From Frankia nepalensis (lineage in GTDB: Bacteria > Actinomycetota > Actinomycetes > Frankiales > Frankiaceae): DNA of 45,481 nucleotides. Position numbers and translations under genes: made by a program. The notes under the pieces were generated by a model. The model was given only the letters and a program-made list of their open reading frames with translations. It did no database searches and was not told where the DNA came from. The DNA lies in the NCBI RefSeq assembly GCF_016786325.1, contig NZ_JADWYU010000086.1, forward strand, positions 1 through 45,481, written 5' to 3'. Shown in pieces: positions 13,583 through 27,694 of this stretch (the stretch's first letter is position 1; each line of letters begins with the position of its first letter).

Positions 13583-13623
13583 CCCCGCCGGGACCGCTAA
13601 CCAAGCGCTAGAGGAGCGCTATC

Positions 13624-14811
13624 CTACAACTCCCCCCGGAACGCCCGGTACTGGAGGGAGGCGAAGAGCGCGTCGAGTTCGTCAAGCTGCCCAGACTGAG
13701 TAGCCCTTATTTGCCCAACAGCTTGCAACCTCTGTCCAAATATTGACTGCAGATCAACGGGTGGACACAGAACGGGAAGGTTCCTTATTGGGCCCTGAAA
13801 AAGATTGGCTTGACTTGATGATCTCGCCTCTCGCAACATGCGGGCCTTCAGCTCGGGAGTTCGAAGGTAGCTAGCAAGATAGTCCGTTGTAACTGTAGAG
13901 GTCCTAGGCCTCACGAGGGCTGCACTTCGAACGAGAGAGAAAGGCTCGTCCGTCTCCACCGGAGCCACTCGGCCGATAGTTCCAGAGCAGGAGATCAGAA
14001 TATCTCCGCGGCGCGGATCGCAGCGCCGCCTAATTCGCGCATGCTCCTCGGGTCCAATATAGTCAACGTTCTCGAAATCGATATATCCGTCACGGACGTT
14101 GCGCGCGGATAGCAGCTTTATCCCTTCGGATTCTCTCTTTGGAGTGAGGTGCTCTCCATCGGTTACCTGCTCGGCGACTTCCCCGACAGTGGAGACATGC
14201 CACTCTCGCGCATTTGAGGCCGGATCGCCGAACATGCCAATGAAGATCGACTGCGCAAGCTCGTCGAGCCGCCCGATCGCCTCCCGCCGCCGCGCCCTGA
14301 GTGCATTTGCCTTGTCCAGGATGTCCGCGAGACGGGCCTGCTCGTCAAGCGGAGGCAGAGGTAGGTCGAGATCCAGGCAGCGCTTGAAGTCGAGGTTCGA
14401 GATGTTCGTGGTCTGCCGACCAAAACTACGAACTGTGGCCTGTATATCACTGGACCCGAACCAATGATAGAGGTACCTCGGATGGACTTTGGCGGTATCG
14501 GCACGCAGGACCGAAATAAAGCCACCAAAGGTAGACTTGTCGGCCAAGTCGGGAACCCAGCAGCACTTACCGACGAGGTTCCAACTGTTGGCACTGGAGA
14601 TGAGGATATCACCGCTGCGCAGGAATTGATTTTCTCGCCTCACGTGACGGGAGTCGATGGCCCACACGTCACTTAGATCCAGCTCCGCCTGCACGTTCTT
14701 GGTGCGCATACAGTTGACCGCCCCGGAGGTGCCCGGTTCCACGACGTCTGTAGGCTTGAAGGTGATGCCGCGAACGAAGGTCGCTACGTCACCGAGTTTA
14801 AAAGCGTTCAC
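13624..14811 (-). CDS. hsdS: Type I restriction-modification specificity subunit
   Basis: HsdS, 395 aa, the DNA-recognition subunit shared by the methylase and restriction complexes. It has the usual two target-recognition domains (about 1-165 and 200-370), each followed by a conserved helical spacer. The first spacer is DLPLPPLDEQARLADILDKA (about 154-173); the second ends with LDELDALFASLQYRAFRGEL. The N-terminal motif KLGDVATFVRGITFKPTDV is typical. Base composition is clearly lower in GC than hsdM and hsdR on either side, the usual sign that recognition domains were exchanged horizontally. The GTG start at 14811 overlaps the hsdM stop. The recognised sequence cannot be predicted here; it should be bipartite. 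Confidence 0.94.
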   Translation of the reverse strand: MNAFKLGDVATFVRGITFKPTDVVEPGTSGAVNCMRTKNVQAELDLSDVWAIDSRHVRRENQFLRSGDILISSANSWNLVGKCCWVPDLADKSTFGGFISVLRADTAKVHPRYLYHWFGSSDIQATVRSFGRQTTNISNLDFKRCLDLDLPLPPLDEQARLADILDKANALRARRREAIGRLDELAQSIFIGMFGDPASNAREWHVSTVGEVAEQVTDGEHLTPKRESEGIKLLSARNVRDGYIDFENVDYIGPEEHARIRRRCDPRRGDILISCSGTIGRVAPVETDEPFSLVRSAALVRPRTSTVTTDYLASYLRTPELKARMLREARSSSQANLFQGPIRNLPVLCPPVDLQSIFGQRLQAVGQIRATQSGQLDELDALFASLQYRAFRGEL

Positions 14812-16328
14812 CCCAGCAGACCCTTCAGTTCAGACATGCCCTGCTGGATCTCGGACTCGATACGTTCAAGGTCTTCGAGGATCTCCAACGAGGAACGGTG
14901 CTCGACCTCGGCGTGGACGATCTCCTTGTAGCGGTTGAGGCTCAGGTCGTAGCCGTTGGCGGCGATGTCGACCTTGGGGACGCAGAAGCTCTGCTCGGTG
15001 CGGGCGCGCTTGCGCTCGGAGCCGAGCCGGGCGCCCCAGCGGCGTAGCACGTCGGGCAGGTTGTTCTTCGCGTGCTCGGCCTCGTCGAGAACGGCCGTCG
15101 GGAGAACGCCAAGCTTCTCTTCCGGCAGCAGGGGTACTCGCTTGTCGTCGAGGCTCCAGCCGTCGGCGGTGACCTCGTAGAACCAGACGTCGTCGGTGCC
15201 GCCGCTGTCGGTGCGGGTGAAGAACAGGACCGCGGTCGAGACCCCGGCATAGGGCTTGAACACACCCCCGGGCAGCTTGACCACGGCGTCGAGCTTGTGG
15301 CCCTCGACCAAGAGCTTCCGCAGGTCCTTGTGCGCCTTGCTGGAGCCGAAAAGGACCCCGTCCGGCACGATGACCGCCGCTCGGCCGCCTGGCTTGAGCA
15401 GCCGGAGGAACAGCGCGAGGAACAGCAGCTCGGTCTTCTTGGTCTTGACGACCGCCTGCAGATCCTTGGCCGTGGACTCGTAGTCGAGGCTGCCCGCGAA
15501 GGGTGGGTTCGCGAGGATCAGCGAGTACTTGCCAGCCTCGCTAGCGGCGCTCTGGGCGAGCGAGTCGCGGTAACGGATGTCGGGCTGCTCGACCTCGTGG
15601 AGCAGCATGTTCATGCTGCCGATCCGCAGCATCGTGTGGTCGAAGTCGAAGCCGTGGAACATCTCGTGGTCGAAGTGCCGGCGGGCGGCGTCGTCCAGGA
15701 GGGCGTCGCTGTGGGTCCGCTCCAGGTAGGCGGCGCTGCCGACGAGGAAGCCCGCGGTGCCACAGGCGGGGTCGCAGATGGTGTCCCCGGGCCTGGGTGC
15801 CGTCATCTCGACCATCAGCTCGATGATGTGTCGCGGCGTGCGGAACTGGCCGTTGTGTCCCGCAGTGGCGATCTTGCCGAGCATGTACTCGTACAGGTCG
15901 CCCTTGGTGTCGTGCTCGTCCAGTGGAAGGTCGTCGAGCATGTCGATGACCTTGGCCAGCAGGTTCGCCGTCGGGATCGTGAACCGGGCGCCGGCCATGT
16001 GGTGCGAGTAGGTCGAGCCCTCGCCCCCGAGGTCCCGCAGCCAGGGGAAGACCTGGTCCCGCACCAGCGCGAACGTCGCCTCGGGGCTGCCCAGGGCCTT
16101 GAAGCGCGACCAACGCAGATCCTGGGTCGAGGCCGAGTAGATCGGGTTCTCGATCGGCTGCCCGGTACGGCGCGCCTTGTTCTCCTTGCCGGCCTGGATG
16201 CCGTCCAGCCGCCGGATGAACATCAGGTAGGTGATCTGCTCGATGACCTCCAGCGGGTTGGAGATCCCACCCGACCAGAACGCGTCCCAGACCCGATCGA
16301 TCCTGCTTCGGAGATCACCTGTCAGCAC
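14808..16328 (-). CDS. hsdM: Type I restriction-modification N6-adenine methylase
   Basis: HsdM, 506 aa, transfers methyl from SAM to adenine N6 in the site chosen by HsdS. The N-terminal HsdM_N helical domain (about 5-135) is followed by the gamma-class methylase domain with SAM motif DPACGTAGF (186-194) and catalytic NPPF (274-277). A C-terminal coiled region (about 465-506, rich in E/L/Q) would contact HsdS. The GTG at 16328 is the start; no strong ribosome binding site is visible. The 3' end overlaps hsdS by GTGA, which couples their translation. The locus is complete and appears functional. Confidence 0.95.
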   Translation of the reverse strand: MLTGDLRSRIDRVWDAFWSGGISNPLEVIEQITYLMFIRRLDGIQAGKENKARRTGQPIENPIYSASTQDLRWSRFKALGSPEATFALVRDQVFPWLRDLGGEGSTYSHHMAGARFTIPTANLLAKVIDMLDDLPLDEHDTKGDLYEYMLGKIATAGHNGQFRTPRHIIELMVEMTAPRPGDTICDPACGTAGFLVGSAAYLERTHSDALLDDAARRHFDHEMFHGFDFDHTMLRIGSMNMLLHEVEQPDIRYRDSLAQSAASEAGKYSLILANPPFAGSLDYESTAKDLQAVVKTKKTELLFLALFLRLLKPGGRAAVIVPDGVLFGSSKAHKDLRKLLVEGHKLDAVVKLPGGVFKPYAGVSTAVLFFTRTDSGGTDDVWFYEVTADGWSLDDKRVPLLPEEKLGVLPTAVLDEAEHAKNNLPDVLRRWGARLGSERKRARTEQSFCVPKVDIAANGYDLSLNRYKEIVHAEVEHRSSLEILEDLERIESEIQQGMSELKGLLG

Positions 16329-16742: not shown

Positions 16743-16925
16743 CGGCGGCCGGCTTGCCGCGACGCAACGTGGCCTTGCCAGATAGCGCCCGTAAGCTTGG
16801 CGGTGTGACGGAGCAGTTGACGGTAGGGCGGCGGGCCGCGCGGGCGATTCTGATCGCTGTAGCCCGCGTCGGCAGGGCCCGGCGCGCGCTCTCGCCGGCC
16901 CGATCAGAAACCCGGCCACCAGCGC

Positions 16926-16939
16926 GGGCGGTACCGTCC
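16926..16939. promoter_or_regulatory. Conserved palindrome GGnCGGTACCGnCC, copy A
   Basis: GG-G-CGGTACCG-T-CC, a symmetric 14-mer, lies about 30 bases upstream of the -35 element of the HAD gene. The same 14-mer with the two variable bases exchanged occurs at 19134-19147 upstream of the regulator gene. Position and conservation suggest a binding site for the XRE-type regulator encoded between the copies. Confidence 0.5.
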
Positions 16940-16966
16940 ACAGCCCGTCCAATGGCAACCCAGCCG

Positions 16967-16996
16967 ATGACGGAAGGTAGCGGCGTCCGATAGCTT
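16967..16996 (+). promoter_or_regulatory. Promoter of HAD hydrolase gene
   Basis: ATGACG (-35, 16967-16972), an 18-base spacer and TAGCTT (-10, 16991-16996) match the actinobacterial vegetative pattern (TTGAC, TAnnnT). The predicted transcript begins near 17003, about 44 bases before the GTG. The same elements with identical 18-base spacing are conserved in the inverted copy upstream of the regulator. Confidence 0.55.
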
Positions 16997-17046
16997 CATC
17001 CGAGAGGATTGAGCCATCCGCAGTCTGACCAGTCGGGAGGGATCGC

Positions 17047-17703
17047 GTGCCGATCAGAACGGTGTTCTTCGACGTGGGCGAGACTATCGTGGATGAGTCC
17101 CGGGAGTACGGGACGTGGGCGGATTGGCTGGGGGTGCCTCGGCACACGTTCTCGGCGGTGTTCGGCGCCGTGATCGCGCGTGGGCTGGACTACCGGGAGG
17201 TATTCCAGGTGTTCCGGCCCGGATTTGATCTCGGGGCGGAGCGGGAGCGGCGAGCGGCGGCCGGGCAGCCGGAGTCGTTCGGTGAGGAGAACCTGTACGC
17301 CGACGCACGGCCCTGCCTGGCAGCGCTGCGTGCGGAGCGTCTGCTGGTCGGCCTGGCGGGCAACCAGACCGCCCGCGCCGAGGGCATCCTGCGGGCATTG
17401 GATCTCCCCGTCGACGTGATCGGCATGTCGGACGGCTGGGGAGTGGAGAAGCCATCGGCGGAGTTCTTCCACCGCGTCGTCGCCGAAGCAGGTTGCCTGG
17501 CCGGGGAGGCGCTCTACGTCGGTGACCGGCTCGACAATGACATCCGCCCCGCGCAGGCCGTCGGCATGGCGACCGCTCTCCTCCGTCGGGGCCCGTGGGG
17601 CCACATCCTCGATGACCCCACGGTCGCCGACCGGTGCTTGTTTCACCTCGACTCTCTGACCGACCTACCGGATCTGGTGCGCAAGCACAACGAGGCGAAC
17701 TGA
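17047..17703 (+). CDS. HAD-superfamily hydrolase
   Basis: Haloacid-dehalogenase-fold phosphatase, 218 aa. Motif I is FFDVGETI (7-14) with nucleophile D9; the usual second Asp of DxD is Gly, as in many DxGxT-type HAD proteins. A helical cap follows (about 20-95). Motif II is LAGNQT, motif III Lys is in EKPSAEFF, and motif IV is GDRLDNDI. A phosphomonoester such as a nucleotide or sugar phosphate is the likely substrate. The GTG start has GGGAGG 6 bases upstream. It converges on the XRE-type regulator gene with 17 bases between stops, and the two genes share a duplicated promoter block. It probably belongs functionally with the nine-gene operon that starts at 19340. Confidence 0.85.
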   Translation: MPIRTVFFDVGETIVDESREYGTWADWLGVPRHTFSAVFGAVIARGLDYREVFQVFRPGFDLGAERERRAAAGQPESFGEENLYADARPCLAALRAERLLVGLAGNQTARAEGILRALDLPVDVIGMSDGWGVEKPSAEFFHRVVAEAGCLAGEALYVGDRLDNDIRPAQAVGMATALLRRGPWGHILDDPTVADRCLFHLDSLTDLPDLVRKHNEAN

Positions 17704-17720
17704 CACTCCACAACTGGAGG

Positions 17721-19031
17721 TCACGACGCTGGTGACAGTGCTCTGATCTGCCCGTCGATGTGTCGACCGTGCTTGCTGTCTCCCAGCAATGGCCGGACCG
17801 CGCGTACACGGTCCATCCCGGTCGCGTACCAGTCGGTGTTGAGCGTCTCGATCGCTTGGCCAAGATAGTCAGCGACGCGGTCGCCATCCCGGCCGTGTGC
17901 TCCGGCAAGATCGGCGAGGATGACACTGCGCTGTTTGCTTCCTCGCGCGCCGAGTTGGTCAGCCGCCGCGGCCAGTCTGCGGGCAGCTTCCGGATGATCG
18001 CCCGTTGCGAGGGCGGCGTAGCCGGCGAAGGAATCGAGACGGGCCGCGTCGTAGAAGTCGAACCATGCGAGATCGCCTGCATTGTCGGGCAGCGATGCTT
18101 CGGCGAGGTCGATCTGGTGCCGGCTGGTTGCCGGGGCGCCGTTTCTGGCTTCGATCTCGGAGGACACGCAGTGCAGCCACGACCGGACGATGGGGTGGAC
18201 GGCGTGCCAGCAGTGCTGGAGCGCGGCGGTGATCAGGTTCCGCGCGCCGTCAGGGTCCTGGCTGAAGCCGGGGATGAAGGCCATGTGGCCGAGGACTGTG
18301 GCGGCGAACGCGTGGTCGCCGGTCTCCTTGCTGGCTGTGAGGGCGACATCGTAGCAGCGGGTGGCGACGGCGGGCTGGCTGAGGTCGAAGAATGCGAGGC
18401 GTCCGGCGAGCAGCGCCGACTGGAGCAGTCCGGCGGCGAGAGCAGCACGCTGGGTGCCGCTCGCGCCGCGCACAAGGGCAACGCCCAGGTGGGTGTGCGC
18501 GAAGGACGCTTCGAAGAGCGGACGCGGGGGGCTGTTCCAGTAGAGTTCTCGCTGACCGTTCGCGATTTTCGTGTAGGTCTCGGGATCCACCTGGGAAGAT
18601 CCAGCGCGCGGGTCGCCCTCGGCCGACGTTATGGACAGCAACGGGCTAAGCAGGGGCAGCGCCCCCGCTCCGAGCAGCGCGCGAAGGACAGTGGCCCGGT
18701 CCCAGTTCGCGTCGCCGGCCGCGCCAGACGGCATACCGTCCACCCTCCCCATCGTGACGTCAGGGCGCATCTTGAGCTCGGCTGGCGTGAGCAGGCCGAG
18801 TTCGCTCGCGGGCTTTCCGAACACGGTCACCAGGTGTTTGCGGTAACGAGGCTCGGGGCGTCGCTCGCCGGTCTCCCATCGCCTGACCGTGTTGGCGCAC
18901 AGGCCGGTGTACGTCTCGCCGGCGTGGTCCATCTCTATGCCGACGCGGCGGGCGACCTCGTCGTGTGACCAGCCACGTTGGAGTCGTTCCCAGGCCAGAT
19001 TCCGGTTCGGGGGATGACGGTTGCTCGCCAC
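17721..19031 (-). CDS. XRE-type regulator with TPR-like sensor region
   Basis: Transcriptional regulator, 436 aa. The N-terminal helix-turn-helix (about 12-75) reads LAWERLQRGWSHDEVARRVG and then CANTVRRWETGERRPEP, the classic XRE recognition helix. A Leu/Ala-rich linker (about 110-135) precedes a long all-helical region (about 150-430) built of TPR-like repeats rich in Ala and Leu. Actinobacterial proteins of this design commonly control adjacent biosynthetic or accessory genes. The GTG start has GGAGG upstream. It converges on the HAD gene and is divergent from the nine-gene operon. Its own promoter block is an inverted duplicate of the HAD promoter, which suggests autoregulation and co-regulation. 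A truncated relative lies at 28507-28953. Confidence 0.85.
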   Translation of the reverse strand: MASNRHPPNRNLAWERLQRGWSHDEVARRVGIEMDHAGETYTGLCANTVRRWETGERRPEPRYRKHLVTVFGKPASELGLLTPAELKMRPDVTMGRVDGMPSGAAGDANWDRATVLRALLGAGALPLLSPLLSITSAEGDPRAGSSQVDPETYTKIANGQRELYWNSPPRPLFEASFAHTHLGVALVRGASGTQRAALAAGLLQSALLAGRLAFFDLSQPAVATRCYDVALTASKETGDHAFAATVLGHMAFIPGFSQDPDGARNLITAALQHCWHAVHPIVRSWLHCVSSEIEARNGAPATSRHQIDLAEASLPDNAGDLAWFDFYDAARLDSFAGYAALATGDHPEAARRLAAAADQLGARGSKQRSVILADLAGAHGRDGDRVADYLGQAIETLNTDWYATGMDRVRAVRPLLGDSKHGRHIDGQIRALSPAS

Positions 19032-19077
19032 GCCGCACCTCCAACGTCTCGTCGGGCAGGTGTCGTCGACCAGGACG

Positions 19078-19107
19078 AGGCTATCGAACGCCGCTACCTT
19101 CCGTCAT
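19078..19107 (-). promoter_or_regulatory. Promoter of XRE-type regulator gene
   Basis: On the minus strand ATGACG (19107-19102) is followed after 18 bases by TAGCCT (19083-19078), the same arrangement as in copy A. The expected start of transcription is about 40 bases before the GTG at 19031. Confidence 0.55.
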
Positions 19108-19133
19108 CGGCTGGTTGCCATTGGACGAGCTGT

Positions 19134-19147
19134 GGACGGTACCGCCC
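19134..19147. promoter_or_regulatory. Conserved palindrome GGnCGGTACCGnCC, copy B
   Basis: GG-A-CGGTACCG-C-CC, about 27 bases upstream of the -35 of the regulator gene. It is the counterpart of 16926-16939 and a candidate operator for autoregulation. Confidence 0.5.
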
Positions 19148-19339
19148 GTGCCGGTGGCCGGGTTTTCTGATCGGGCCGGCGAGAATCGTGCGCCGGGCCC
19201 TGCCGGCGACAGCCGACGCGGGCCACAGCGACCAGGGATGCGTGGTGGACACGTCGAGCAAGAACGGTGGCACGCCAAGCGACAGCACTGACGGCGATGA
19301 GCAGGGCTTCCGGCCCGCTGGGCCTGCGGCGGCAGTCCG

Positions 19340-20308
19340 ATGAACCGGGCGATGGTCACCGGCGCGGCCGGCTTCATTGGATCCCATCTCGTCGAGAACC
19401 TGGTTGCCCGAGGAGTCACGACCGTCGCCGTCGACCGCCGAGCGCGCGGTTCCGACGCCCTCGCCGACGAGAACCTCGCGCCTGCAAGGGGCGACCCGCG
19501 GTGCGTCCTCGTCAGTGCCGACCTGGCCCAGGACGGCCTGGATGACGCTGTGGACGGGTGCGACGTCGTCTTCCACCTAGCGGCCCGACCAGGCGTTCGG
19601 CAGTCCTGGGGGGACGAGTTCGACGATTACATACGGTCCAACGTGGTTGGCACGCGCCGTCTCCTTGACGCGTGCGTCCGGCGCGGTGTGCGCCGCGTCG
19701 TCTTCGCCTCGTCCTCCAGCGTCTACGGTCCCATCGCCCGACCGAGCCGGGAGTCGGACCCTACCTGTCCGATGTCGCCTTACGGTGTCAGCAAGCTCGC
19801 CGCCGAGCAGCTGTGTCTGGCATACGCTCGCCGGCCGGACAGCGCGCTCAGCGTCGTCGCGCTGCGGTATTTCACCGTCTTCGGCCCGCGGCAACGGCCG
19901 GACATGGCTATCGCCCGTCTGCTGTTCGCCGCATACACCGGGTTCCCGATCGAGATCTTCGGTGACGGCTCGCAGCGGCGCGACTTCACCTACGTCACGG
20001 ACATTGTCGACGCCACGATCGCCGCCGCGGATATCGATGTCCTCGCCGCGGTCGTGAACGTCGGAGGTGGGACGAGCGCCTCGATGAACGAAGTGATCGC
20101 GCTGGTCGGCCAGTGCACCAGTCGACGGGTGCCGACCACCAGCGTCGCTGCCAGACCGGGCGACGTCCCCGTCACCGCCGCCGACCTGTCCCAGGCTCAG
20201 CAACTCCTTGGCTACCAACCCGCGGTCGGGCTCGCCGAGGGGATCGCCCGCCAGACCTCCTGGCTTGTGGGCCTCCCCCACCACCGACTGCTCGCCTTCA
20301 CTCCCTGA
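19340..20308 (+). CDS. NAD-dependent NDP-sugar epimerase/dehydratase (extended SDR)
   Basis: Extended short-chain dehydrogenase, 322 aa, of the UDP-glucose/UDP-glucuronate 4-epimerase type. The NAD-binding GAAGFIG (8-14) has the GxxGxxG spacing. The catalytic Ser lies in SSSSVYG (124-130) and YxxxK is Y148-G-V-S-K152. Substrate-side motifs such as RYFTVFGPRQRPDMAIARL and FGDGSQRRDFTYVTDIVDA match NDP-sugar epimerases and decarboxylases. It would supply an NDP-sugar, most simply to the glycosyltransferase three genes downstream. The start ATG at 19340 has no strong ribosome binding site; ATG at 19352 is an alternative. It is the first gene of a nine-gene plus-strand operon, with 16 bases to the next start. 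Confidence 0.88.
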   Translation: MNRAMVTGAAGFIGSHLVENLVARGVTTVAVDRRARGSDALADENLAPARGDPRCVLVSADLAQDGLDDAVDGCDVVFHLAARPGVRQSWGDEFDDYIRSNVVGTRRLLDACVRRGVRRVVFASSSSVYGPIARPSRESDPTCPMSPYGVSKLAAEQLCLAYARRPDSALSVVALRYFTVFGPRQRPDMAIARLLFAAYTGFPIEIFGDGSQRRDFTYVTDIVDATIAAADIDVLAAVVNVGGGTSASMNEVIALVGQCTSRRVPTTSVAARPGDVPVTAADLSQAQQLLGYQPAVGLAEGIARQTSWLVGLPHHRLLAFTP

Positions 20309-20324
20309 GATTCGAGGACCAGGA

Positions 20325-21296
20325 ATGCTTGTTCTCAGCGCTGGCGACGCGACAGGATTATTCGCCGCAGCATGCGAGGCCGTGCTAGCCGAGGGCATTG
20401 AGGTCCGCCCCCGGGGCATGACCACGCAGGAGGTGATGGGCGCCCACCTGCGACTAACCGACCCCCGGCGCCGCTTCGTCGACCTCCCACCTGCCCGTGT
20501 CATCAACCCCGCCTTCGCCGTGGCCGAGGCGGTGTGGATCCTGTCGGGCTCGGACGGCCCCTGGATCTACGACTTCAACCAGGAACTGCTGCGCTACACC
20601 GATGGCGGGGTGCTCCGCGGGGCTTACGGGCCGAGGCTGCGTCGTTGGCATGGGACGGTCGACCAGCTGGACGCAGTACGCCGGGAACTGCTCGCTGACG
20701 CTGACTCCCGGCGCGCCGTGGTCACGCTGTATGACCCGCAACGCGACCACAGTGGTCATCGCGATGTGCCATGCACCCTTGCCTACCGGTTCTTCCTGCG
20801 GGCGGGCCGACTGGAAATGCACACGACGATGCGCAGCCAGGACCTGTGGCTTGGCTTTCCATACGACATCTTCACCGCCACGCTGATCCACGAGCTACTC
20901 GCCGGATGGCTCGGAGCGCCGATGGGCGACTATCACCACCACGTCGACTCGCTGCACCTCTATGCGCACAACCGCGACGGCGCCATGAAAGCGGCCACCG
21001 ATGCCGCACCCGTAGACGCCCCGGGAATGGCGCCTATGACTGTGGAGTGGGACGATCTTGAGTTCGTTTTGGGAAGGGTCGCGGTCGGCGACTACGCCGG
21101 GGTCGCGGGCAGCGCTTGGGCGCCCTTCGCGCGGGTCCTGGCCAGCTACCGGGCCTGGCGCGCCGGCGACCGGGACCAGGCACGGTCCCTGACAGCCCAC
21201 ATACCAGGAGTGCTGGGCGCGGCGCTGGGCCGCTGGTACGACCTACGCACCACGCGGTCGACGCCCGTGATCCACACGGCGGGAGGCGCGCCATGA
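20325..21296 (+). CDS. Thymidylate-synthase-fold (d)CMP 5-hydroxymethylase-like enzyme
   Basis: Thymidylate-synthase superfamily, 323 aa. Catalytic residues align with the family: E68 in AEAVWILSG, YGPRLRRW (101-108), nucleophile C150 in DVPCTLAYRF, phosphate-binding R170-S171 in MRSQDLWLG, and H211 and Y213 in SLHLYAHN. The base-selecting residue, Asn177 of E. coli thymidylate synthase (LGLPFN), is Asp here (D181 in LGFPYDIF). Asp at this place is characteristic of T4 dCMP hydroxymethylase and of the CMP hydroxymethylase MilA of mildiomycin biosynthesis. Predicted reaction: methylenetetrahydrofolate-dependent 5-hydroxymethylation (or methylation) of CMP or dCMP. A housekeeping thymidylate synthase is unlikely given D181 and the context. 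The ATG at 20325 has GAGGACCAGGA upstream; the 3' end overlaps the carbamoyltransferase start by ATGA. Confidence 0.85.
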   Translation: MLVLSAGDATGLFAAACEAVLAEGIEVRPRGMTTQEVMGAHLRLTDPRRRFVDLPPARVINPAFAVAEAVWILSGSDGPWIYDFNQELLRYTDGGVLRGAYGPRLRRWHGTVDQLDAVRRELLADADSRRAVVTLYDPQRDHSGHRDVPCTLAYRFFLRAGRLEMHTTMRSQDLWLGFPYDIFTATLIHELLAGWLGAPMGDYHHHVDSLHLYAHNRDGAMKAATDAAPVDAPGMAPMTVEWDDLEFVLGRVAVGDYAGVAGSAWAPFARVLASYRAWRAGDRDQARSLTAHIPGVLGAALGRWYDLRTTRSTPVIHTAGGAP

Positions 21297-23011
21297 GCGC
21301 CGCCGCGGCCCGGCGTGGCGCCGAGGTCGTGCTTGGGCTGTGCGCGTTCACCCATGACTCGGCGGCGGCGCTCCTCGTCGACGGCCATCTGGTCGGATTC
21401 GTCGAGGAGGAACGTCTCAACGGCGTCAAGCACACGAATTCCTACCCGGCGAACGCTATCGCCTGGCTACTCGACCAAGCTGGCCTCGCCCGGGAGGACG
21501 TCACCACCGTCGCGTACAACTTCGCTGGCCGCCACTACCTGAGGCCGCTGCTTCACGTGCCTGCGCACCTGGTGGACCGGCTAACGCAGACAAGGGCGAT
21601 ACCACGCGCCCGCAGCTTCGTCACCGTGCATCACCGCTACCGGGCCCGGATGGCACAGGTGCGATCCCAGTTTCCCAAGGCATACCTGCAGTCGGTTCTG
21701 CATCACCGCGCCCACGCGCTGTACGCCTTCCTGTCCTCCGGCTATGACGAGGCGGCGGTCCTCGTCGTTGACAGCCTCGGCGAGATCCAGAGCACGACGA
21801 CCTGGCACGCCAATCCGACGCTGCAACTGCTCCACGCGATCAACGACCCGGCGTCGCTCGGATACGCCTATGGCGCCATCACGGAGCACCTCGGCTGGCG
21901 ACGCGGCGACGAGGAGGGCACCGTCATGGCCCTGGCCGCGATCGGCGACCCCGCCAGATTCCGGCCGCTGATGTCCCGTGCGATCCGATTGACTCGGGAC
22001 GGCTTCGCCCTCGACCCCGCCTTGCTGCCCCTGCGCGTGCTGTCCAGCCGGTACGGCCGCGTGACCAGCGCCTTCACTGCTGCAACCTGCCCACCTCGCC
22101 GGCCGGACGCCCAGGTCGAGTCCGTGCATGCCGACCTGGCCGCCGCGCTCCAGGAACGCACCGAGCAGGTAATGCTCCACCTCGCCTACCGGGCACGCGG
22201 TACGAGCGGCAGCGGTCTGCTGTGCCTCGGCGGCGGGGTCGCGATGAACTGCGTCGCTGTCGGCCGCATCTTGCAGGAAGGGTACTTCGACGAGGTGCAC
22301 ATGCCGCCCGCGCCGGCGGACTCCGGGACCGCCATCGGCGCCGCGGCGGCCGTCTGGTCGGACACCACCGGCCGCGCGCCCGGTGGACTCACCCAGCGCA
22401 GCTACCTCGGCCCCGCATACCCGGGCGTGATCCTCTCTACCGCGCCCCGGCCCGGACTGTCAGCCCGCCGCCTCACCGAACCGGCCCGCGAGCTGGCGCG
22501 CAACCTCGCCGAAGGCCAGATCATCGGTCTGTTCACCGGCCCGGTCGAAGCCGGGCCACGAGCGTTGGGCAACCGATCGATCCTCGCCTCGCCGCTCACC
22601 GACGACGTCGTAAAACGGCTCAACGCGACCGTGAAGTTCCGCGAACCGTTCCGGCCGTTCGCACCGGTCGTCCTCGCCGACAAGGCCGCGGACTACTTCG
22701 CGCTCAACCAGCTGTCGCCCTACATGTCCATCGCCGTCCCCGCCACCACGCTGAGCCAGACGGTCCTGCCCGCGGTCGTCCACGCCAACGGCAGGGCCCG
22801 CGTCCAAACCGTCACACAGGAACAGCACCCGTTCCTCGCTGAACTGCTCGCCGCGTTCGCCGAGCTCACCGGCCATCCGGTCCTCATCAACACCTCGCTG
22901 AACATCAAGGGGAAGCCGATCGCCGGCACACCAGAACTCGCGCTCGACTGCCTGACCGAGTCCGGTCTCGACGGGCTCCTCCTCGAAGGCTGGTGGGTGA
23001 CAAGGTGTTGA
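21293..23011 (+). CDS. NodU/TobZ-family O-carbamoyltransferase
   Basis: O-carbamoyltransferase, 572 aa, which moves a carbamoyl group from carbamoyl phosphate via carbamoyl-AMP to a hydroxyl. The N-terminal Kae1-like domain has the metal-binding HxxxH as HHRAH (137-141), followed by FLSSGYDEAAVLVVDSLGE. The C-terminal YrdC-like domain has EAGPRALGNR (419-428), KFREPFRPFAPVV and INTSLNIKGKPI. Length and motif order match NodU, CmcH and TobZ. The ATG has GGGAGG upstream and overlaps the preceding stop, so it is translationally coupled to the thymidylate-synthase-like gene. The acceptor is probably the 5-hydroxymethyl group made by that enzyme, or a sugar hydroxyl. Carbamoyltransferases acting on 5-hydroxymethylcytosine have been reported in phages, to my knowledge. 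Confidence 0.93.
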   Translation: MSAAAARRGAEVVLGLCAFTHDSAAALLVDGHLVGFVEEERLNGVKHTNSYPANAIAWLLDQAGLAREDVTTVAYNFAGRHYLRPLLHVPAHLVDRLTQTRAIPRARSFVTVHHRYRARMAQVRSQFPKAYLQSVLHHRAHALYAFLSSGYDEAAVLVVDSLGEIQSTTTWHANPTLQLLHAINDPASLGYAYGAITEHLGWRRGDEEGTVMALAAIGDPARFRPLMSRAIRLTRDGFALDPALLPLRVLSSRYGRVTSAFTAATCPPRRPDAQVESVHADLAAALQERTEQVMLHLAYRARGTSGSGLLCLGGGVAMNCVAVGRILQEGYFDEVHMPPAPADSGTAIGAAAAVWSDTTGRAPGGLTQRSYLGPAYPGVILSTAPRPGLSARRLTEPARELARNLAEGQIIGLFTGPVEAGPRALGNRSILASPLTDDVVKRLNATVKFREPFRPFAPVVLADKAADYFALNQLSPYMSIAVPATTLSQTVLPAVVHANGRARVQTVTQEQHPFLAELLAAFAELTGHPVLINTSLNIKGKPIAGTPELALDCLTESGLDGLLLEGWWVTRC

Positions 23012-24039
23012 TCGGCTACAGCTTCTGGGGCTTCCTAGGCCCCGGCATCATCGACACCCCCGACGGCGGACGCAGCCACCGCCGCACCTTGATCGATGGA
23101 CTCCAGCGGCGGGGCCACGAGGTCGTCTTCCTGCAGCGTGACCGCGACCGGACCGAGGCAGGACTCGACCTGGCCGACCTCTACCGCTGGGAACCCGGCC
23201 TGCCAGTCATCGACGTCCTCATGCTCGAGTGGCGCTGGCCCATCGCCGGCCGAAACACCACACCCTGCGGCACAGCCAGCCACACCTGCGACCTGCACCG
23301 ACAGGCCGAACTCGTCACCCACTACACCGACCGGCTCGGAACACCCACCTTGTTGTGGGACAAGGACCGGCAACTGCCCGCGGACGATTCCCTCTGGACG
23401 CGGCCAAACGTCACGATCTGTGAACCGGCGCTGCATCCCCGCCCTCGCGCGGTCTCCCTACTGTTCCCCCTCGCCGACGCGGTGCTTCGGACCGCCGACC
23501 CCGCCGCGCTCGCAGCCCTGCCCCGACCGCTGCCGCTCGTCTACATCGGCAACCAGTACGACCGCGACGACGCCTTCGAGCGCTTCTTCGCGCCGGCAGC
23601 CGGCAACCTTCCTCACGCAGTGGCCGGAAAGTGGTCTCGCACCTCACAGTGGCCGCACGTCAACTTCGTCGGGCGCATCGCCTTCGAGCAGGTCGCCGAG
23701 CTATACCGCGAAGCACTGGCGACCGTCCTCCTGCTCCCGGAGCGCTACCGTTCGGCCGGCCAAATGACTCAAAGGATCTTCGAAGCGGTGCTCGCGGGCT
23801 GTCTGCCTCTCGCTCCGACGGACATCGACGATGTCGACGCCTTCGTGCCGCGCTGCCTGCAGGTCGTCGACGGCGCCGAAACGCTATCCAAGATCGACTG
23901 GCTCACGGCCGTCACCAGGACCACGGAACACACGGATCTGATCAGCCAGTGTCTCGGGAAACTGGATCTGTTCCGGCTGTCCGCGCAACTCGACACCATC
24001 GACCGAGTGCTGTCATCGGCACGTGGAGTAGACCGATGA
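22993..24039 (+). CDS. GT-B-like glycosyltransferase (CgeB/DUF3880-like)
   Basis: Probable GT-B-fold glycosyltransferase, 348 aa. The N-terminal half begins with a Rossmann-like strand (VLIGYSFWGFLGPG) and has alternating strands and helices. The C-terminal half has YIGNQYDRDDAFERFF (about 176-191) and the nucleotide-sugar-site region SAGQMTQRIFEAVLAGCLPL (about 255-274), which resembles the terminal signature of CgeB-type glycosyltransferases. The N-terminus is divergent and family assignment is moderate. The GTG start at 22993 lies 19 bases inside the carbamoyltransferase gene; a GTG at 23005 is an alternative. With the epimerase at 19340 it would form a sugar-transfer module. A different nucleotide-binding transferase cannot be excluded. 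Confidence 0.65.
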   Translation: MGDKVLIGYSFWGFLGPGIIDTPDGGRSHRRTLIDGLQRRGHEVVFLQRDRDRTEAGLDLADLYRWEPGLPVIDVLMLEWRWPIAGRNTTPCGTASHTCDLHRQAELVTHYTDRLGTPTLLWDKDRQLPADDSLWTRPNVTICEPALHPRPRAVSLLFPLADAVLRTADPAALAALPRPLPLVYIGNQYDRDDAFERFFAPAAGNLPHAVAGKWSRTSQWPHVNFVGRIAFEQVAELYREALATVLLLPERYRSAGQMTQRIFEAVLAGCLPLAPTDIDDVDAFVPRCLQVVDGAETLSKIDWLTAVTRTTEHTDLISQCLGKLDLFRLSAQLDTIDRVLSSARGVDR

Positions 24040-24090
24040 CAGCGCATGCGCCTATGGCGTGGCCGGGCCGCGCCCCTACTGTGAGAGCAG

Positions 24091-24600
24091 ATGAACAAGA
24101 TCGCCATCATCGGCTGCGGCGGCAGCGGCAAGTCGACACTCGCCCGGCAAGTCGCCACGATCCTCGACCTGCCGGTGACCCACCTCGACAGCCTCTACTA
24201 CGACGACCAGTGGAATCCGCTCCCACAGAAGGAGTTCGCGGCCCGGCAGGAGAAGCTGGTCGTCCACGACCGGTGGATCATCGAGGGCAACTACGCCTCC
24301 ACCCTGCCCATCCGGCTACGAGCCGCGGACACGGTCGTCTTCCTGGACCTGCCGGCGATCACCTGTCTGTGGGGAATCGCCCAGCGCCGCTGGCGCTACC
24401 GCGGCGGCCAGCACGCCGACGTCGGCGTCTACGACCGGATCACCTGGAGCTTCGTCCGCTACATCGCCGGGTACCGGCGCACCATGCGTCCACGGGTCCG
24501 CCAGCTGCTCGCGGAGCACGCACCTCACGCCCACCTGGTCACCTTGACCAGCCGGCGGCAGGCGAAGGGCTTCCTCGCGCGTATCGGCACGGGCAGATAG
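24091..24600 (+). CDS. P-loop nucleotide kinase (adenylate-kinase/FlaR-like)
   Basis: Small P-loop kinase, 169 aa, in the group annotated as adenylate kinase-like or DNA topology modulation protein FlaR. Walker A is GCGGSGKST (8-16). The LDSLYYDDQW and DRWIIEGNYASTLPIRL segments are typical of the group, and an Arg-rich lid follows (RRWRYRGGQ). It probably phosphorylates a small metabolite; in this operon a modified nucleoside monophosphate is the obvious candidate, much as T4 gp1 handles hydroxymethyl-dCMP. That role is inferred from context. It starts 51 bases after the glycosyltransferase stop, the largest gap in the operon, with TACTGT 8 bases before the ATG, so a secondary promoter is possible. 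Confidence 0.8.
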   Translation: MNKIAIIGCGGSGKSTLARQVATILDLPVTHLDSLYYDDQWNPLPQKEFAARQEKLVVHDRWIIEGNYASTLPIRLRAADTVVFLDLPAITCLWGIAQRRWRYRGGQHADVGVYDRITWSFVRYIAGYRRTMRPRVRQLLAEHAPHAHLVTLTSRRQAKGFLARIGTGR

Positions 24601-24637
24601 CTGAGGTCACGATCGGTGCTGGGAGGCGGTCCAGCTC

Positions 24638-25462
24638 ATGATGGCCAAGGACGTCTTCCTCGATCCGGTAGCTGTCCAGGATCTCTACCGCAGCGCGGAC
24701 AGGCTCAGCCGCCGAACGGATGCCCTACACCAGGCGAAGATCACCGGAAGCGATGTCGCCGCGGCCATACCGACGCTGCTTCGCCAGGCCGGCGCACCAC
24801 ACGGGACCGCTCTCGACATCGGCTGCGGGCGCGGGACCACCACCCTGCGTCTCGCGACCGCCGCAACGTTCGTCCGACTCGTCGCGATCGACGTATCTCC
24901 AGCGCTGCTGGCCACTACCCGCCGCCGCCTACAGGCGACTGCATTAGGAGCCAGCACCACGACGGTCTGCGCGGACTTCCACTGCCTTCCGATCCGCAGC
25001 CAGACCATCTCGGCGGTCGTTGCGGCCTTCTGCCTCTACCATTCGCCGCGACCCGCAACCGCGGTCGCTGAGATAGCCCGCGTACTCGCTCCCGGCGGTA
25101 TCGCCGTCCTGGTGACCAAGTCACTGGACAGCTATGCCGAACTCGATGACCTTGTCGCTCGCGCCGAGCTCGACCCGCAGGCGACCAGGCGGCCGAGCCT
25201 CTACGAAACCTTCCACAGCGCATCGATCGCCGCCATTACCGCCACCGGCCTGTCCGTCCTCGACGTGCTCCACGAACGACACGTCTTCCGGTTCGCCGGC
25301 CACGCACACGCCGCCGTCTACCTCGCCACCTCGCCGAAGTACCAGATGGGCGCCGCCAACGGCGACCCGGACGCCATCGCCACAGCCCTGCGCTCCCGGT
25401 TGCCCGACCGGCCGATCGAGACGGCCTCGACCGTTAGCTACGCGATAGCACGCTGCCCGTGA
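24638..25462 (+). CDS. Class I SAM-dependent methyltransferase
   Basis: SAM-dependent methyltransferase, 274 aa, Methyltransf_11-like. Motif I LDIGCGRG (59-66), the acidic end of strand 2 in LVAIDVSPALL, motif II region CADFHCLPI, and the post-motif RVLAPGGIAVLVTKS are all present. It lacks the target-recognition or catalytic signatures of DNA methylases (no NPPY or PC), so a small molecule is the likely substrate. The ATG at 24638 or the adjacent ATG at 24641 could start it; GGGAGG lies about 13 bases upstream. Its stop overlaps the next start as GTGA. A methyl decoration of the operon product is inferred. Confidence 0.85.
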   Translation: MMAKDVFLDPVAVQDLYRSADRLSRRTDALHQAKITGSDVAAAIPTLLRQAGAPHGTALDIGCGRGTTTLRLATAATFVRLVAIDVSPALLATTRRRLQATALGASTTTVCADFHCLPIRSQTISAVVAAFCLYHSPRPATAVAEIARVLAPGGIAVLVTKSLDSYAELDDLVARAELDPQATRRPSLYETFHSASIAAITATGLSVLDVLHERHVFRFAGHAHAAVYLATSPKYQMGAANGDPDAIATALRSRLPDRPIETASTVSYAIARCP

Positions 25463-26211
25463 ACGCCCCCACCGTCATCAAGTGGTACCACGATCACGCA
25501 CGGTGCGCCGCCGCCAGCGCCCACTACATCTGGCTCGCAGCGCTGGAGACCGGCATCCTCCTGCCCCGCCTCCTGCGCGCCGACCGGCATATGCTGATCT
25601 TCGAACGTGTTCCCGGTCGTGCTGGCTTGCCGGGCGACCTGCCACGTCTGGGCTCGATCATTGGCCAGTTGGACGCCGCCGCGTATCGCCGTCACCTTTA
25701 TGCGGCGAGCCTCCGCGAACCGCACCGCACATCGGCCGGCCCACCTCTGGCTGATTTTCTCTCGCCCCGCCGAGGAAAGCTTCTCGCGCTGGCCGCCAGC
25801 GCAGGGCTCCAGACAGAACAGGTCGCCACCGTCCTCGACATGCTCGCCGACCAGCCCGCAGCGCTGTACAAGGACGCCAACCCGCGGAACTTCGTTCTCA
25901 CCGCGGACCGAGTCACGATCGTCGACTTCGACGACCTTACGCTCGCCCCCTTCGGCTACGACCTCGCCAAACTCGTCGTCACAACCGCCATGACCCACGG
26001 CAAGCTGGCAACACGCACCATCCAGGCATCAGTTGACGCCTACAACGTGCAGGTCCAGCCGAACCGGTGCGACTCCGAATCCTTCCGCATCGTAGCTGAG
26101 ATCCACCACCTGCTCACCTCCCCATATCTCGGCAGACACGGCTACCGGCACCCCTGGCCAACGGTCAGGCCATGGCCCGAACCTGCTGCCTTCAACAGAC
26201 AGCGCGCGTAG
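25459..26211 (+). CDS. APH-fold phosphotransferase 1
   Basis: Kinase-like protein, 250 aa, of the aminoglycoside phosphotransferase/choline kinase superfamily. The catalytic loop is YKDANPRN (D139, N144; Lys replaces the usual His before the Asp) and the metal-binding DFDD lies at 156-159, followed by APFGYDLAKLV. The N-lobe is short: the protein starts almost directly at VIKWYHDHARC, with K8 as a possible ATP-binding Lys. Members phosphorylate hydroxyls of antibiotics, sugars or choline-like molecules. The GTG start overlaps the methyltransferase stop. It may perform a biosynthetic phosphorylation or self-protection. Confidence 0.78.
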   Translation: MNAPTVIKWYHDHARCAAASAHYIWLAALETGILLPRLLRADRHMLIFERVPGRAGLPGDLPRLGSIIGQLDAAAYRRHLYAASLREPHRTSAGPPLADFLSPRRGKLLALAASAGLQTEQVATVLDMLADQPAALYKDANPRNFVLTADRVTIVDFDDLTLAPFGYDLAKLVVTTAMTHGKLATRTIQASVDAYNVQVQPNRCDSESFRIVAEIHHLLTSPYLGRHGYRHPWPTVRPWPEPAAFNRQRA

Positions 26212-26228
26212 GAACGGAAATCCCTCAC

Positions 26229-26882
26229 ATGAGTCACTCGACCGAAATCGTCATCGTCCGCCACGGCGAGGCAGCCTGCAACGTGGCCGGAATCGTCGGC
26301 GGAGACAAGGGCTGCACCGGGCTCACCGAGACCGGCCGCGCACAAGCCGAACAACTCGCTAAGCGGCTCGCGTCCGAGCACGCCATCCGGCCATACAACA
26401 ACCTCTACGCCACCCCACGCCGCCGCGTGGTTGAGACAGCGCGGATCGTCGCCAACACGCTCAACCTGCCCGAGACCGTCGAGACCGAACTCCGCGGCCC
26501 CGACCACGGCGAGGCCGACGGCCGCCCGTGGACAGAGATCAAGACTGCGTTCGGCGGCCCTCCCCAGCACAACCCGGACCAGCCGTACGCCCCCGGTTCG
26601 GAAAGCTGGAACGGCTACCTCACCCGCGCGATCGCGGCGTTGGAAACCATCCTGCGGCGCCACGGCGGGCAGCGCATCCTCGTCGTGGCACACGGCGAGA
26701 CGATCGAGGCAGCCCATAACCTGCTCCTCGACCTGCCCATCGACGCGTGCCGCCGGTTCGGATACGTCACCGATCACACTGCGATTACCCGCTGGTACCG
26801 GCAGGTCAACCGCTTCGGCCAAGCCACCTGGCTCCTCGCCGCGCACAACGACACAACCCACCTGCCCGGCACACCCAGATGA
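26229..26882 (+). CDS. Histidine phosphatase (phosphoglycerate-mutase-like)
   Basis: Histidine phosphatase superfamily, branch 1, 217 aa. The phospho-acceptor is H12 in RHGE (11-14); other catalytic residues are the Arg cluster TPRRR (62-66), probable proton donor E95 in PDHGEADG, and H155 in VVAHGET. It would remove a phosphate from a small metabolite. The ATG at 26229 has GGAACGGA upstream; an in-frame ATG at 26172 inside the previous gene is less likely. Its stop overlaps the next ATG (ATGA). It sits between two kinase-like genes, which suggests a phosphorylated intermediate or a protected phosphorylated product that is later released. Confidence 0.88.
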   Translation: MSHSTEIVIVRHGEAACNVAGIVGGDKGCTGLTETGRAQAEQLAKRLASEHAIRPYNNLYATPRRRVVETARIVANTLNLPETVETELRGPDHGEADGRPWTEIKTAFGGPPQHNPDQPYAPGSESWNGYLTRAIAALETILRRHGGQRILVVAHGETIEAAHNLLLDLPIDACRRFGYVTDHTAITRWYRQVNRFGQATWLLAAHNDTTHLPGTPR

Positions 26883-27694
26883 ACAGTCAGGACGAGCTCC
26901 TCGGCCTGTGCCAGCGGTACCTCGACCCAGAATCCCAAGAGGTCCGCCTCCATCTCCGCAGCTGCGGCACGGCGGTCCTGGAGGCTGTCAGCCGCCATCA
27001 CGGCGACATCGTCATCAAGACCTACACGGACCGCCAACGTCACGGACAAGAGACCCACGCCTACCGCACCTGGGTCCCCGTCCTTCGCAACCGGGCGCCG
27101 AAGCTCCTGTGCTCGATCAACCAGCCCGCCGCCATCGTGATCACCGCGGTTTCCGGCCACATGCTCAATGACCTCGCTCTGGGGCCGGCCGACGAGCAGG
27201 ACGCACACCGCCGCGCTGGAGAGATCCTCCGGACCTTCCACTCCTCCGGACCGCCTCGTGCCGAACCGGACTGGACAACCTGGCTCGCCGAACGCGCCGA
27301 CTACTGGCTCGCCCAAGCCGCCGACCGCATCTCCGCCCGCCAGCGGCTTGAGATCCAAGCCCACATGCGAGCACTTCAAGACCTCGCGCCCGTCCCCGCG
27401 GTCCCATGCCACCTCGATTTCACCCCGCGCAACCTCATCCGCGCCGACGACGGCGCCGTCCACGTCATCGACTTCGAACACAGCCGCTACGACCTGGCCG
27501 CCCGCGACCTCGTGCGCCTCGCCACCCGCATCTGGCCCGCCCGCCCGGACCTACGCTCGGCCTTCCTCGACGGCTACGGCGACCTGACCACCCTCGATGA
27601 GGAGGTGATCGAACACTGCCGGCATCTGGACGTCCTTACGTCGACCTGTCGCGACCTACGAGTCGGCCCGGGACTGTCCCGTAGTCGGCTCTGA
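26879..27694 (+). CDS. APH-fold phosphotransferase 2
   Basis: Second aminoglycoside-phosphotransferase-like kinase, 271 aa. N-lobe Lys K47 lies in DIVIKTYTDRQ, the Brenner loop is CHLDFTPRNL (H178, D180, N185) and the metal-binding site is VIDFEHS (D198). All key positions are canonical, so it should be active. The ATG overlaps the histidine-phosphatase stop, and it is the last gene of the operon. The substrate is unknown; it is not closely similar by eye to the kinase at 25459, so the two are probably not a recent duplication. Confidence 0.83.
   Translation: MNSQDELLGLCQRYLDPESQEVRLHLRSCGTAVLEAVSRHHGDIVIKTYTDRQRHGQETHAYRTWVPVLRNRAPKLLCSINQPAAIVITAVSGHMLNDLALGPADEQDAHRRAGEILRTFHSSGPPRAEPDWTTWLAERADYWLAQAADRISARQRLEIQAHMRALQDLAPVPAVPCHLDFTPRNLIRADDGAVHVIDFEHSRYDLAARDLVRLATRIWPARPDLRSAFLDGYGDLTTLDEEVIEHCRHLDVLTSTCRDLRVGPGLSRSRL

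Follow-up and report, generated by a model that had tools for sequence, protein, structure and literature searches.

The 45,481-nucleotide contig NZ_JADWYU010000086.1 of Frankia nepalensis (the whole of which is called the window below) carries nine genes on the + strand, at positions 19340-27694, that form a real operon, and the analysis presented here shows that it belongs to a family of actinobacterial loci. We give roughly even chances to the operon being a horizontally moving biosynthetic unit for a hypermodified 2'-deoxycytidine small molecule, either a nucleoside or a nucleotide. The best reading of its content is a phage-type deoxycytidine glycosylation module extended by carbamoyl, methyl and phosphate chemistry. 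If this is true, a DNA precursor would be the starting point of a natural-product pathway, with phage-type base glycosylation in cellular genomes. The comparison also exposes a glycosyltransferase family that accompanies cytosine hydroxymethylases in virus-classed contigs, in the operon and in a second type of bacterial cluster, so that the fate of 5-hydroxymethylcytosine (hmC) outside T-even phages becomes directly testable. Its enzymes could serve to write new modified nucleotides, and a new nucleoside antibiotic or an anti-phage compound may come to light.

Open reading frame (ORF) calling and family scans recovered all nine genes with recognisable families, assigned with Pfam and NCBIfam and, for two of the proteins, by fold. 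The operon opens with EPI (19340..20308, alternative start 19352), an NAD-dependent epimerase (Pfam Epimerase, 1.4e-58) predicted to be a uridine diphosphate (UDP)-glucuronate 4-epimerase. It is followed by TS (20325..21296; Pfam, 6.7e-24), a thymidylate-synthase-fold (deoxy)cytidine monophosphate ((d)CMP) 5-hydroxymethylase predicted to be of the dCMP type, by the O-carbamoyltransferase CARB (21293..23011; Pfam Carbam_trans_N and _C) and by GT (22993..24039, alternative start 23005), a GT-B glycosyltransferase recognised from an AlphaFold 2 (AF2) model and Foldseek. KIN (24091..24600) is a P-loop nucleotide kinase (NCBIfam PRK08118 at 1.7e-49, below its cut-off, and an AF2 fold), and MT (24638..25462) a class I S-adenosylmethionine (SAM) methyltransferase (Pfam Methyltransf_25, 7.5e-20). 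The last three genes encode APH1 (25459..26211; Pfam APH, 2.9e-11), a small-molecule kinase of the aminoglycoside-phosphotransferase (APH) fold, the branch 1 histidine phosphatase HP (26229..26882; Pfam, 1.6e-36) and a second APH-fold kinase, APH2 (26879..27694; Pfam APH, 2.4e-19), the latter two being optional genes. The sequence-only reading, made before any database search, had described nine tightly packed genes holding what is needed to hydroxymethylate, carbamoylate, glycosylate and activate a pyrimidine nucleotide, and the families expected for this, those for phosphorylation included, were borne out. Its account of the junctions stood only in that overlaps are present: with preferred starts, four of the eight junctions overlap (TS/CARB, CARB/GT, MT/APH1 and HP/APH2) and not five, and three of these, not four, are of the ATGA/GTGA type. 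The Pfam and NCBIfam scans found no polymerase, nuclease or DNA-binding family among the nine proteins.

Relatives of the operon were collected in several ways. Two short TS peptide patterns, scanned against one genome per species (84,980 species), gave 29 loci, all actinobacterial by title; this is a minimum, since nearly exact patterns were used. In the phylum, 30 of 396 genomes gave a match to a protein search at E 1e-10, which added one locus, and a close relative was present only in the window's genome and in genome G204 (66%), the next matches lying at 40% and 38%. Of 393 genomes in the class, 11 gave a match to a GT profile: by neighbourhood, the operon is present in the window's genome, G204 and six others, G556 and G508 hold a GT-TS pair only, and G599 holds three short GT pieces only. 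Altogether, 36 distinct actinobacterial loci were separated by TS sequence, the window included, with L171 dropped as a duplicate of L063 (over the last 250 TS residues) and with L048 and the degenerate L052 kept in the counts. All nine genes were found in 19 of the 36 loci, and the first seven, through APH1, in 25. The individual genes were present in 36 (TS), 34 (CARB), 34 (GT), 33 (EPI), 31 (KIN), 31 (MT), 28 (APH1), 22 (APH2) and 21 (HP) loci; these counts include a few partial matches, and 31 of the loci had been collected by TS. Five of the eight loci in which APH1 is missing reach a contig end there, and HP and APH2 are absent despite downstream room in L040, L063, L165 and L166, among others. 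Within each locus the operon matches share a strand, and the gene order is the same throughout, except that EPI comes last in eight (L053-L056, L058, L061, L169 and L170). The copies in L052, L059 and L060 seem to be truncated, and L048 stops at a contig end; CARB is split into two ORFs in L054 and APH2 is broken into two in L049. Synteny of the operon, TS and CARB included, is conserved across actinobacteria. Genes flanking the operons were annotated mostly by eye, with family scans run on chosen proteins.

The nearest PDB entry to TS is MilA, a CMP 5-hydroxymethylase (3.9e-35), with thymidylate synthases next (from 5.4e-16). We aligned 31 operon members with T4 gp42, SPO1 gp29, MilA and an actinobacterial ThyA. 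The cysteine, a threonine at E. coli thymidylate synthase position 147 and an aspartate at position 177 are present in all 31 (Cys150, Thr151 and Asp181 in the window), so the cytosine-type active site claimed from the sequence alone is confirmed. Asp177 is the cytosine-type residue and position 147 the other discriminating one, according to PMC8670742. The replacement of Asn by Asp at position 177 argues against synthesis of thymidine monophosphate, and the window's genome encodes ThyX; a housekeeping thymidylate synthase was thus rejected as the identity of TS. That the nine genes are chance neighbours or include an ordinary housekeeping thymidylate synthase, a thought invited by how common the single families are, can be dismissed almost entirely, being refuted by the synteny, the Asp-type active site and the host ThyX. 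No second match to TS was found in the window's genome, an assembly that is 96.8% complete.

Residues of the ribose pocket bear on the sugar of the substrate. According to PMC5175136, Lys133 and Ala176 give MilA its preference for CMP, and Arg and Ser occur in the deoxyribonucleotide enzymes. Among the 31 aligned operon members the pocket is Arg and Ser in 21, as in T4 gp42 (the window protein has Arg129 and Ser171), Arg and Gly in nine, and Pro and Ser in the degenerate L052; the Lys and Ala of MilA occur in none. The loci added later follow suit, with Arg and Ser in L164, L165, L166, L170 and L171 and Arg and Gly in L169. In a tree of 41 rows, 12 from the operon and with MilA represented by a 210-residue stretch, the operon rows form a clade of their own (100/99) apart from MilA, which groups with the enzymes of three variant clusters (L149, L167 and L168; 100/99) described below; the branch leading to T4 gp42 is very long, and the tree leaves many of its deep forks open. 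A MilA-type CMP hydroxymethylase was rejected on both the pocket residues (Arg129/Ser171 in place of Lys/Ala) and the tree. Because of the Arg and Ser pocket under the MilA rule and the position apart from MilA, dCMP is the more likely predicted substrate of TS rather than CMP, and the "cytidine" modification of the sequence-only reading should probably read "deoxycytidine". Annotated phages contain TS relatives in 2034 records, all below 60% identity, and annotated plasmids likewise contain relatives below 60% identity only.

The sequence of GT gave only a weak family match in Pfam and NCBIfam. Its AF2 model is confident (pLDDT 90.3) and shows a GT-B fold, for which Foldseek ranked T4 beta-glucosyltransferase first in the PDB (2.8e-10) and a sugar glucosyltransferase second (4.2e-10); numerous glycosyltransferases of viruses, including one from phage SP-15, were listed as well. 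GT has an invariant Asp100 (window numbering), and the catalytic residue of T4 beta-glucosyltransferase is an Asp100 too. The best VIA-align match was again T4 beta-glucosyltransferase (1nzd; Z 22.9, root-mean-square deviation 3.2, 296 residues aligned). The modelled fold supports, without proving, an hmC acceptor, and genetic co-occurrence is the stronger evidence for it. Two scans of viral contigs gave eight virus-classed records with GT relatives (L149, L150 and L172-L177). All eight have a TS match on the same contig (that of L176 being read as L072, from the same contig), and all eight viral TS proteins have the cytosine-type Asp, with Arg and Ser in seven and Lys and Ala in L149. GT and TS are adjacent or one gene apart in L150, L172, L174 and L175; they are separated by several kilobases in L149 and L177, and by more than 10 kb in L173 and L176. 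By eye, a P-loop kinase stands near the pair in five of the eight records (L150, L172, L174, L175 and L177); Pfam placed these kinases above its cut-off in L175 only, below it in L172, L174 and L177, and found no match in L150. GT also co-occurs with a cytosine hydroxymethylase in both variant loci from genomes and in 34 of the 36 operon loci, TS itself having served to collect 31 of the 36. The window GT had no match at 1e-5 in annotated phage or plasmid records, four GT queries (the window's and three viral ones) had none at 1e-5 in 50,697 annotated phage records, and one variant GT had none at 1e-5 in annotated plasmids. Nor did blastp with the window proteins find a GT in the stretches fetched around the 80 loci of viral TS relatives that were kept out of 195 confirmed ones. 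TS is common without GT, and GT without TS was not seen. In virus-classed contigs, members of this GT family thus travel together with cytosine hydroxymethylases, and glycosylation of the 5-hydroxymethyl group fits this association. The virus-classed set of GT and hydroxymethylase is probably an undescribed phage DNA hypermodification.

The sugar donor is probably UDP-galacturonate, and the sugar galacturonic acid, since EPI retains the residues of UDP-glucuronate 4-epimerases. MoeE5, an enzyme of moenomycin biosynthesis, and the Bacillus cereus UDP-glucuronate 4-epimerase are its nearest solved relatives (MoeE5, 2.5e-82; 6zl6, 4.4e-64). The carboxylate-binding residues (Ser at 126-128 and the equivalents of Thr178 and Arg185) are kept in all 26 loci examined, a count that omits L048, L052 and five later loci; Arg185 is the key carboxylate-holding residue of UDP-glucuronate 4-epimerase according to PMC12338863. 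A uronic-acid donor would also suit a ribonucleoside antibiotic made in the manner of mildiomycin or gougerotin, in which TS would act on CMP, the base would be freed and GT would build an N-glycosidic cytosyl uronic acid. That antibiotic group uses a uronic-acid donor, the sugar of mildiomycin being a uronic acid, and TS is closest to MilA in the PDB; an NsdA-family regulator is present next to the operon as well. The pocket residues and separate clade of TS speak for the deoxyribonucleotide instead. Moreover, Pfam recognised no MilB-type N-glycosidase among the nine proteins, the only part of the genome checked for one, and the viral GT accompanies deoxy-type enzymes and kinases, where base release would make little sense. 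We hold the mildiomycin-like route to be rather unlikely.

CARB contains both the N- and the C-terminal carbamoyltransferase domains and is closest in the PDB to GdmN (3.5e-86) and then to the novobiocin carbamoyltransferase (1.9e-83). A phage carbamoyltransferase acts on 5-hydroxymethyldeoxycytidine (5hmdC) in DNA and on its triphosphate, 5hmdCTP, and on RNA at much lower yield, as stated in PMC8670742; because that enzyme converts both 5hmdC and 5hmdCTP, CARB may have either the hydroxymethyl group or the sugar as its acceptor. The carbamoyl group, and not the sugar, could thus sit on the 5-hydroxymethyl oxygen, with GT acting at another position. In favour of this arrangement, the phage enzyme makes 5-carbamoyloxymethylcytosine (5cmC) and its gene co-occurs with an Asp-type TS (PMC8670742). 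The resemblance of CARB to the antibiotic-tailoring enzymes named above tells against it, as does the fact that GT, not CARB, accompanies TS in virus-classed records. We regard the arrangement as unlikely yet worth keeping in view, since it is compatible with the other readings and its probability overlaps theirs. Relatives of CARB occur in 138 annotated phage records, all below 60% identity. The idea that viruses carry the operon whole was rejected: a scan of viral contigs with CARB patterns gave 15 pattern matches and no relative, and the CARB profile, run without a positive control, matched none of the eight GT-bearing records.

The resemblance to viruses raises the further alternative that the operon serves nucleic-acid modification, either by filling the cell with hypermodified deoxycytidine (dC) nucleotides or by modifying hmC in host or mobile-element DNA, for example against restriction. 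The TS-GT-kinase core resembles virus loci in which DnaE-like polymerase genes were seen by eye (near the pairs of L150, L172, L174 and L175), mobile-element-like genes flank several operon loci, and the substrates of the phage carbamoyltransferase include 5hmdCTP, DNA and, weakly, RNA (PMC8670742). None of the nine genes is for replication or DNA targeting, and APH-fold kinases and a phosphatase are better suited to small molecules. To our knowledge, no bacterium replaces its dC. Nucleic-acid modification is, in our judgement, improbable.

The remaining proteins are described less sharply, with MT, APH1, HP and APH2 assigned to broad families only. KIN falls below the Pfam and NCBIfam cut-offs and gave only weak matches to the PDB by sequence; its AF2 model (pLDDT 86.4) has a nucleotide-kinase fold, best matched in Foldseek by the adenylate kinase/AK6 type, with shikimate kinase and CMP kinase also listed. 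MT and APH1 are fused into one ORF in L039 (L039:14226-15947), which suggests that methylation and phosphorylation are consecutive steps.

A second type of bacterial cluster emerged from the GT searches. In L149 (L149:2919-9011), L168 (L168:10191-14762) and L167 (L167:1-3119), GT proteins that are 51-53% identical are paired with MilA-clade hydroxymethylases whose pocket holds Lys with Ala or Gly. L149 is the virus-classed contig, with phage-structural-like genes downstream (by eye); L168 belongs to the same family as the window, and L167 to the same genus. Pfam recognised a nucleoside diphosphate (NDP) kinase in L149 and L168, and because this kinase acts on diphosphates, its presence suggests that the variant clusters make a triphosphate; their product may be a modified cytidine triphosphate. 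Both loci also encode a radical-SAM-like CxxxCxxC protein, which NCBIfam supports weakly and only in L149, together with an exonuclease-like protein recognised through NCBIfam in L149 and by eye in L168.

From what the analysis shows, namely the gene set, its synteny, the substrate-predicting residues, the GT fold and the pairing of GT with hydroxymethylases in virus-classed contigs, we propose the following pathway; its steps and their order, like the regulation, the product and its role, are to be taken as predictions. TS would convert dCMP and methylene-tetrahydrofolate to 5-hydroxymethyl-dCMP, and EPI would convert UDP-glucuronate to UDP-galacturonate, from which GT would place the uronic acid on the oxygen of the 5-hydroxymethyl group, in the manner of the T4 glucosyltransferases that act on DNA. 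CARB would carbamoylate a hydroxyl, on the sugar or on free hydroxymethyl groups, and MT would methylate the product. KIN, APH1, APH2 and HP, together with a nearby hydrolase of the HAD family, would determine the phosphorylation state, which could serve activation, release or self-protection. Several observations weigh against a deoxycytidine small molecule made in this way. The lead of T4 beta-glucosyltransferase over other GT-B enzymes is less than one Z unit, too little for the fold by itself to settle the acceptor, and the pairing of GT with MilA-clade enzymes in L149, L167 and L168 indicates that the GT family does not require deoxyribose. The nine Arg and Gly TS proteins are all from Streptomyces, and sugar selectivity may be relaxed in them because Gly replaces Ser in the ribose pocket. 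In the virus locus L172 an epimerase immediately follows TS and lacks Arg185, for which reason this virus probably uses another sugar. The eight GT-bearing virus records gave no CARB profile match, in a search run without a positive control, so the chemical place of CARB rests on gene order and on the other phage system (PMC8670742). No exporter is found among the nine operon genes. Finally, a radical SAM gene (Pfam, 3.2e-22) sits inside the operon of L051, in the GT-KIN interval (L051:8113-8970), so some versions of the operon do more chemistry than we propose. A gap of similar size occurs at the same place in L063.

The operon unit is probably larger than nine genes. Upstream and divergent from it lies an XRE/TPR regulator of the NsdA family (17721..19031, - strand; NCBIfam NsdA_fam_reg, 7.7e-48, above cut-off), preceded in the window by a HAD-family hydrolase (17047..17703, + strand; Pfam Hydrolase, 7.1e-12) that is a probable member of the same regulon. 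Close relatives of the regulator occur near the operon in L031, L035, L037 and L170; copies of the HAD gene (79-83% identity) adjoin the regulator in L035, L037 and L170, whereas the copy of L031 is some 8 kb ahead of EPI. Between the regulator and the operon, roughly 160 bp (19073..19235) recur as an 86% identical inverted copy ahead of the HAD gene (16850..17001), with 141 of 164 alignment columns identical in blastn and with the repeat search giving the elements I1, I2 and I4. In L031, L035 and L037, portions of this stretch match immediately ahead of the regulator. The duplicated stretch is likely a shared control region, an operator or promoter common to the regulon, through which the regulator would control both the operon and the HAD gene. 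The larger unit is proposed because relatives of the regulator and the HAD gene lie near the operon elsewhere and because copies of one control region precede both the HAD gene and the regulator.

The regulator and HAD genes are themselves situated between the operon and a set of type I restriction genes (HsdR, HsdS and HsdM at 10121-16328, - strand; HsdR and HsdS recognised with Pfam, HsdM through N6_Mtase). The G+C content is about 0.71-0.77 in the flanks and 0.63-0.70 over roughly 10-30 kb of the window, and since it falls below that of the flanks, the operon and the adjacent restriction genes are probably on one acquired island. Mobile-element-like genes were noted by eye at several loci, among them replication-relaxation-like proteins in L031, L038 and L049. 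Defence genes lie near the operon in five of the 31 loci first collected: besides the type I restriction of the window, there is a relative of HsdM in L045 (31% to the window's), Cas3 in L037, and in L052 a NERD-kinase with an Eco57I/DUF7008 methylase, which may be read as Pgl-like. The fifth is L050, in which a CRISPR-like array of ten repeat copies (L050:18127-18736), spaced mostly by 72-75 bp and twice by 24, begins less than 1 kb downstream of the operon and is followed by a Cas3 gene (L050:19336-20913) with Cas3_HD just above its cut-off.

These neighbours are the ground for an anti-phage chemical defence, in which an intracellular modified dCTP analogue would poison phage DNA synthesis or mark phage DNA; the NDP kinase of the variant clusters, which share the GT, points to a triphosphate product as well. 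The neighbourhood is suggestive and serves as a lead, having been noticed afterwards and set against a background known at genome level only (of 148 genomes, 67 have N6_Mtase and 31 Cas3_HD, to be compared with flanks totalling 330,422 bp at 30 loci), and genomic islands gather defence genes anyway. A known anti-phage defence system was rejected, since no PADLOC family fits the gene set as a whole: eight of ten proteins had no PADLOC match, MT matched mad2 (1.7e-18, over the methyltransferase stretch) and HP marginally matched PglZ (0.0036). A chemical defence of this kind is quite unlikely in our estimate. Still more doubtful is a fuller scheme, in which a phage hypermodification module was turned into a bacterial anti-phage system whose galacturonosyl, carbamoylated deoxycytidine nucleotide, harmless to the host, would poison or mark phage DNA synthesis, and in which the sister clusters with NDP kinase and radical-SAM-like protein would make the ribonucleoside triphosphate counterpart.

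Some loci show further genes beside the operon. In L046, a copy without KIN is followed by a different P-loop-kinase-like protein (L046:15370-15933, by eye), which perhaps replaces KIN. Just upstream of TS in L053 (L053:7438-10004) lies the gene for a 616-aa protein with a UDP-GlcNAc-2-epimerase-like C-terminus; the protein recurs directly upstream of TS in all nine Streptomyces loci (L053-L061), and clustering placed a HAD phosphatase before it in eight of them. Clustering of non-core ORFs gave mostly antisense noise, and this recurrence of Streptomyces upstream genes is the sole result used from it.

Searches of open-access titles and abstracts (for gene combinations, MilA, bacimethrin and phage hypermodification) returned no described pathway with this gene combination; together with the PADLOC result this agrees with the sequence-only reading, which knew of no characterised match. 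That reading was right in kind, as a pyrimidine modification, and is shifted here to deoxycytidine and to phage base-glycosylation chemistry: it named mildiomycin, polyoxin and phage hypermodified cytosine as partial parallels, and the TS-GT core is closest to the last of these, a phage module. The gp42 and hmC glucosyltransferases of T-even phages resemble the operon in the Asp/Thr/Arg/Ser active site and in a GT fold that is, narrowly, the closest, and in T4 the b-gt gene adjoins gene 42. They differ in that the operon is bacterial, lacks replication genes and adds an epimerase, a carbamoyltransferase, a methyltransferase, APH kinases and phosphatases; its predicted donor is a uronic acid, and the likeness of GT to T4 beta-glucosyltransferase is one of fold. 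The arabinosyl-hmC of phage RB69 is similar in having a probable GT-B enzyme acting on hmC, a sugar other than glucose and sugar-nucleotide genes of its own, and dissimilar in that those genes are different and the modification is one of phage DNA (PMC6024577). The phage 5cmC system shares with the operon an Asp-type TS together with a carbamoyltransferase, acting on 5hmdCTP and nucleic acid; the sections of PMC8670742 consulted describe no GT, epimerase or kinase with it, and the CARB of the window is nearest to antibiotic enzymes. MilA, in the mildiomycin pathway, is like the operon TS a cytosine hydroxymethylase of thymidylate-synthase fold in an actinobacterium (PMC5175136), and unlike it has Lys and Ala in the pocket and groups with the enzymes of L149, L167 and L168. 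EPI, compared with MoeE5 and the B. cereus epimerase, keeps the carboxylate-binding residues of the latter, with Ser for Thr at position 126.

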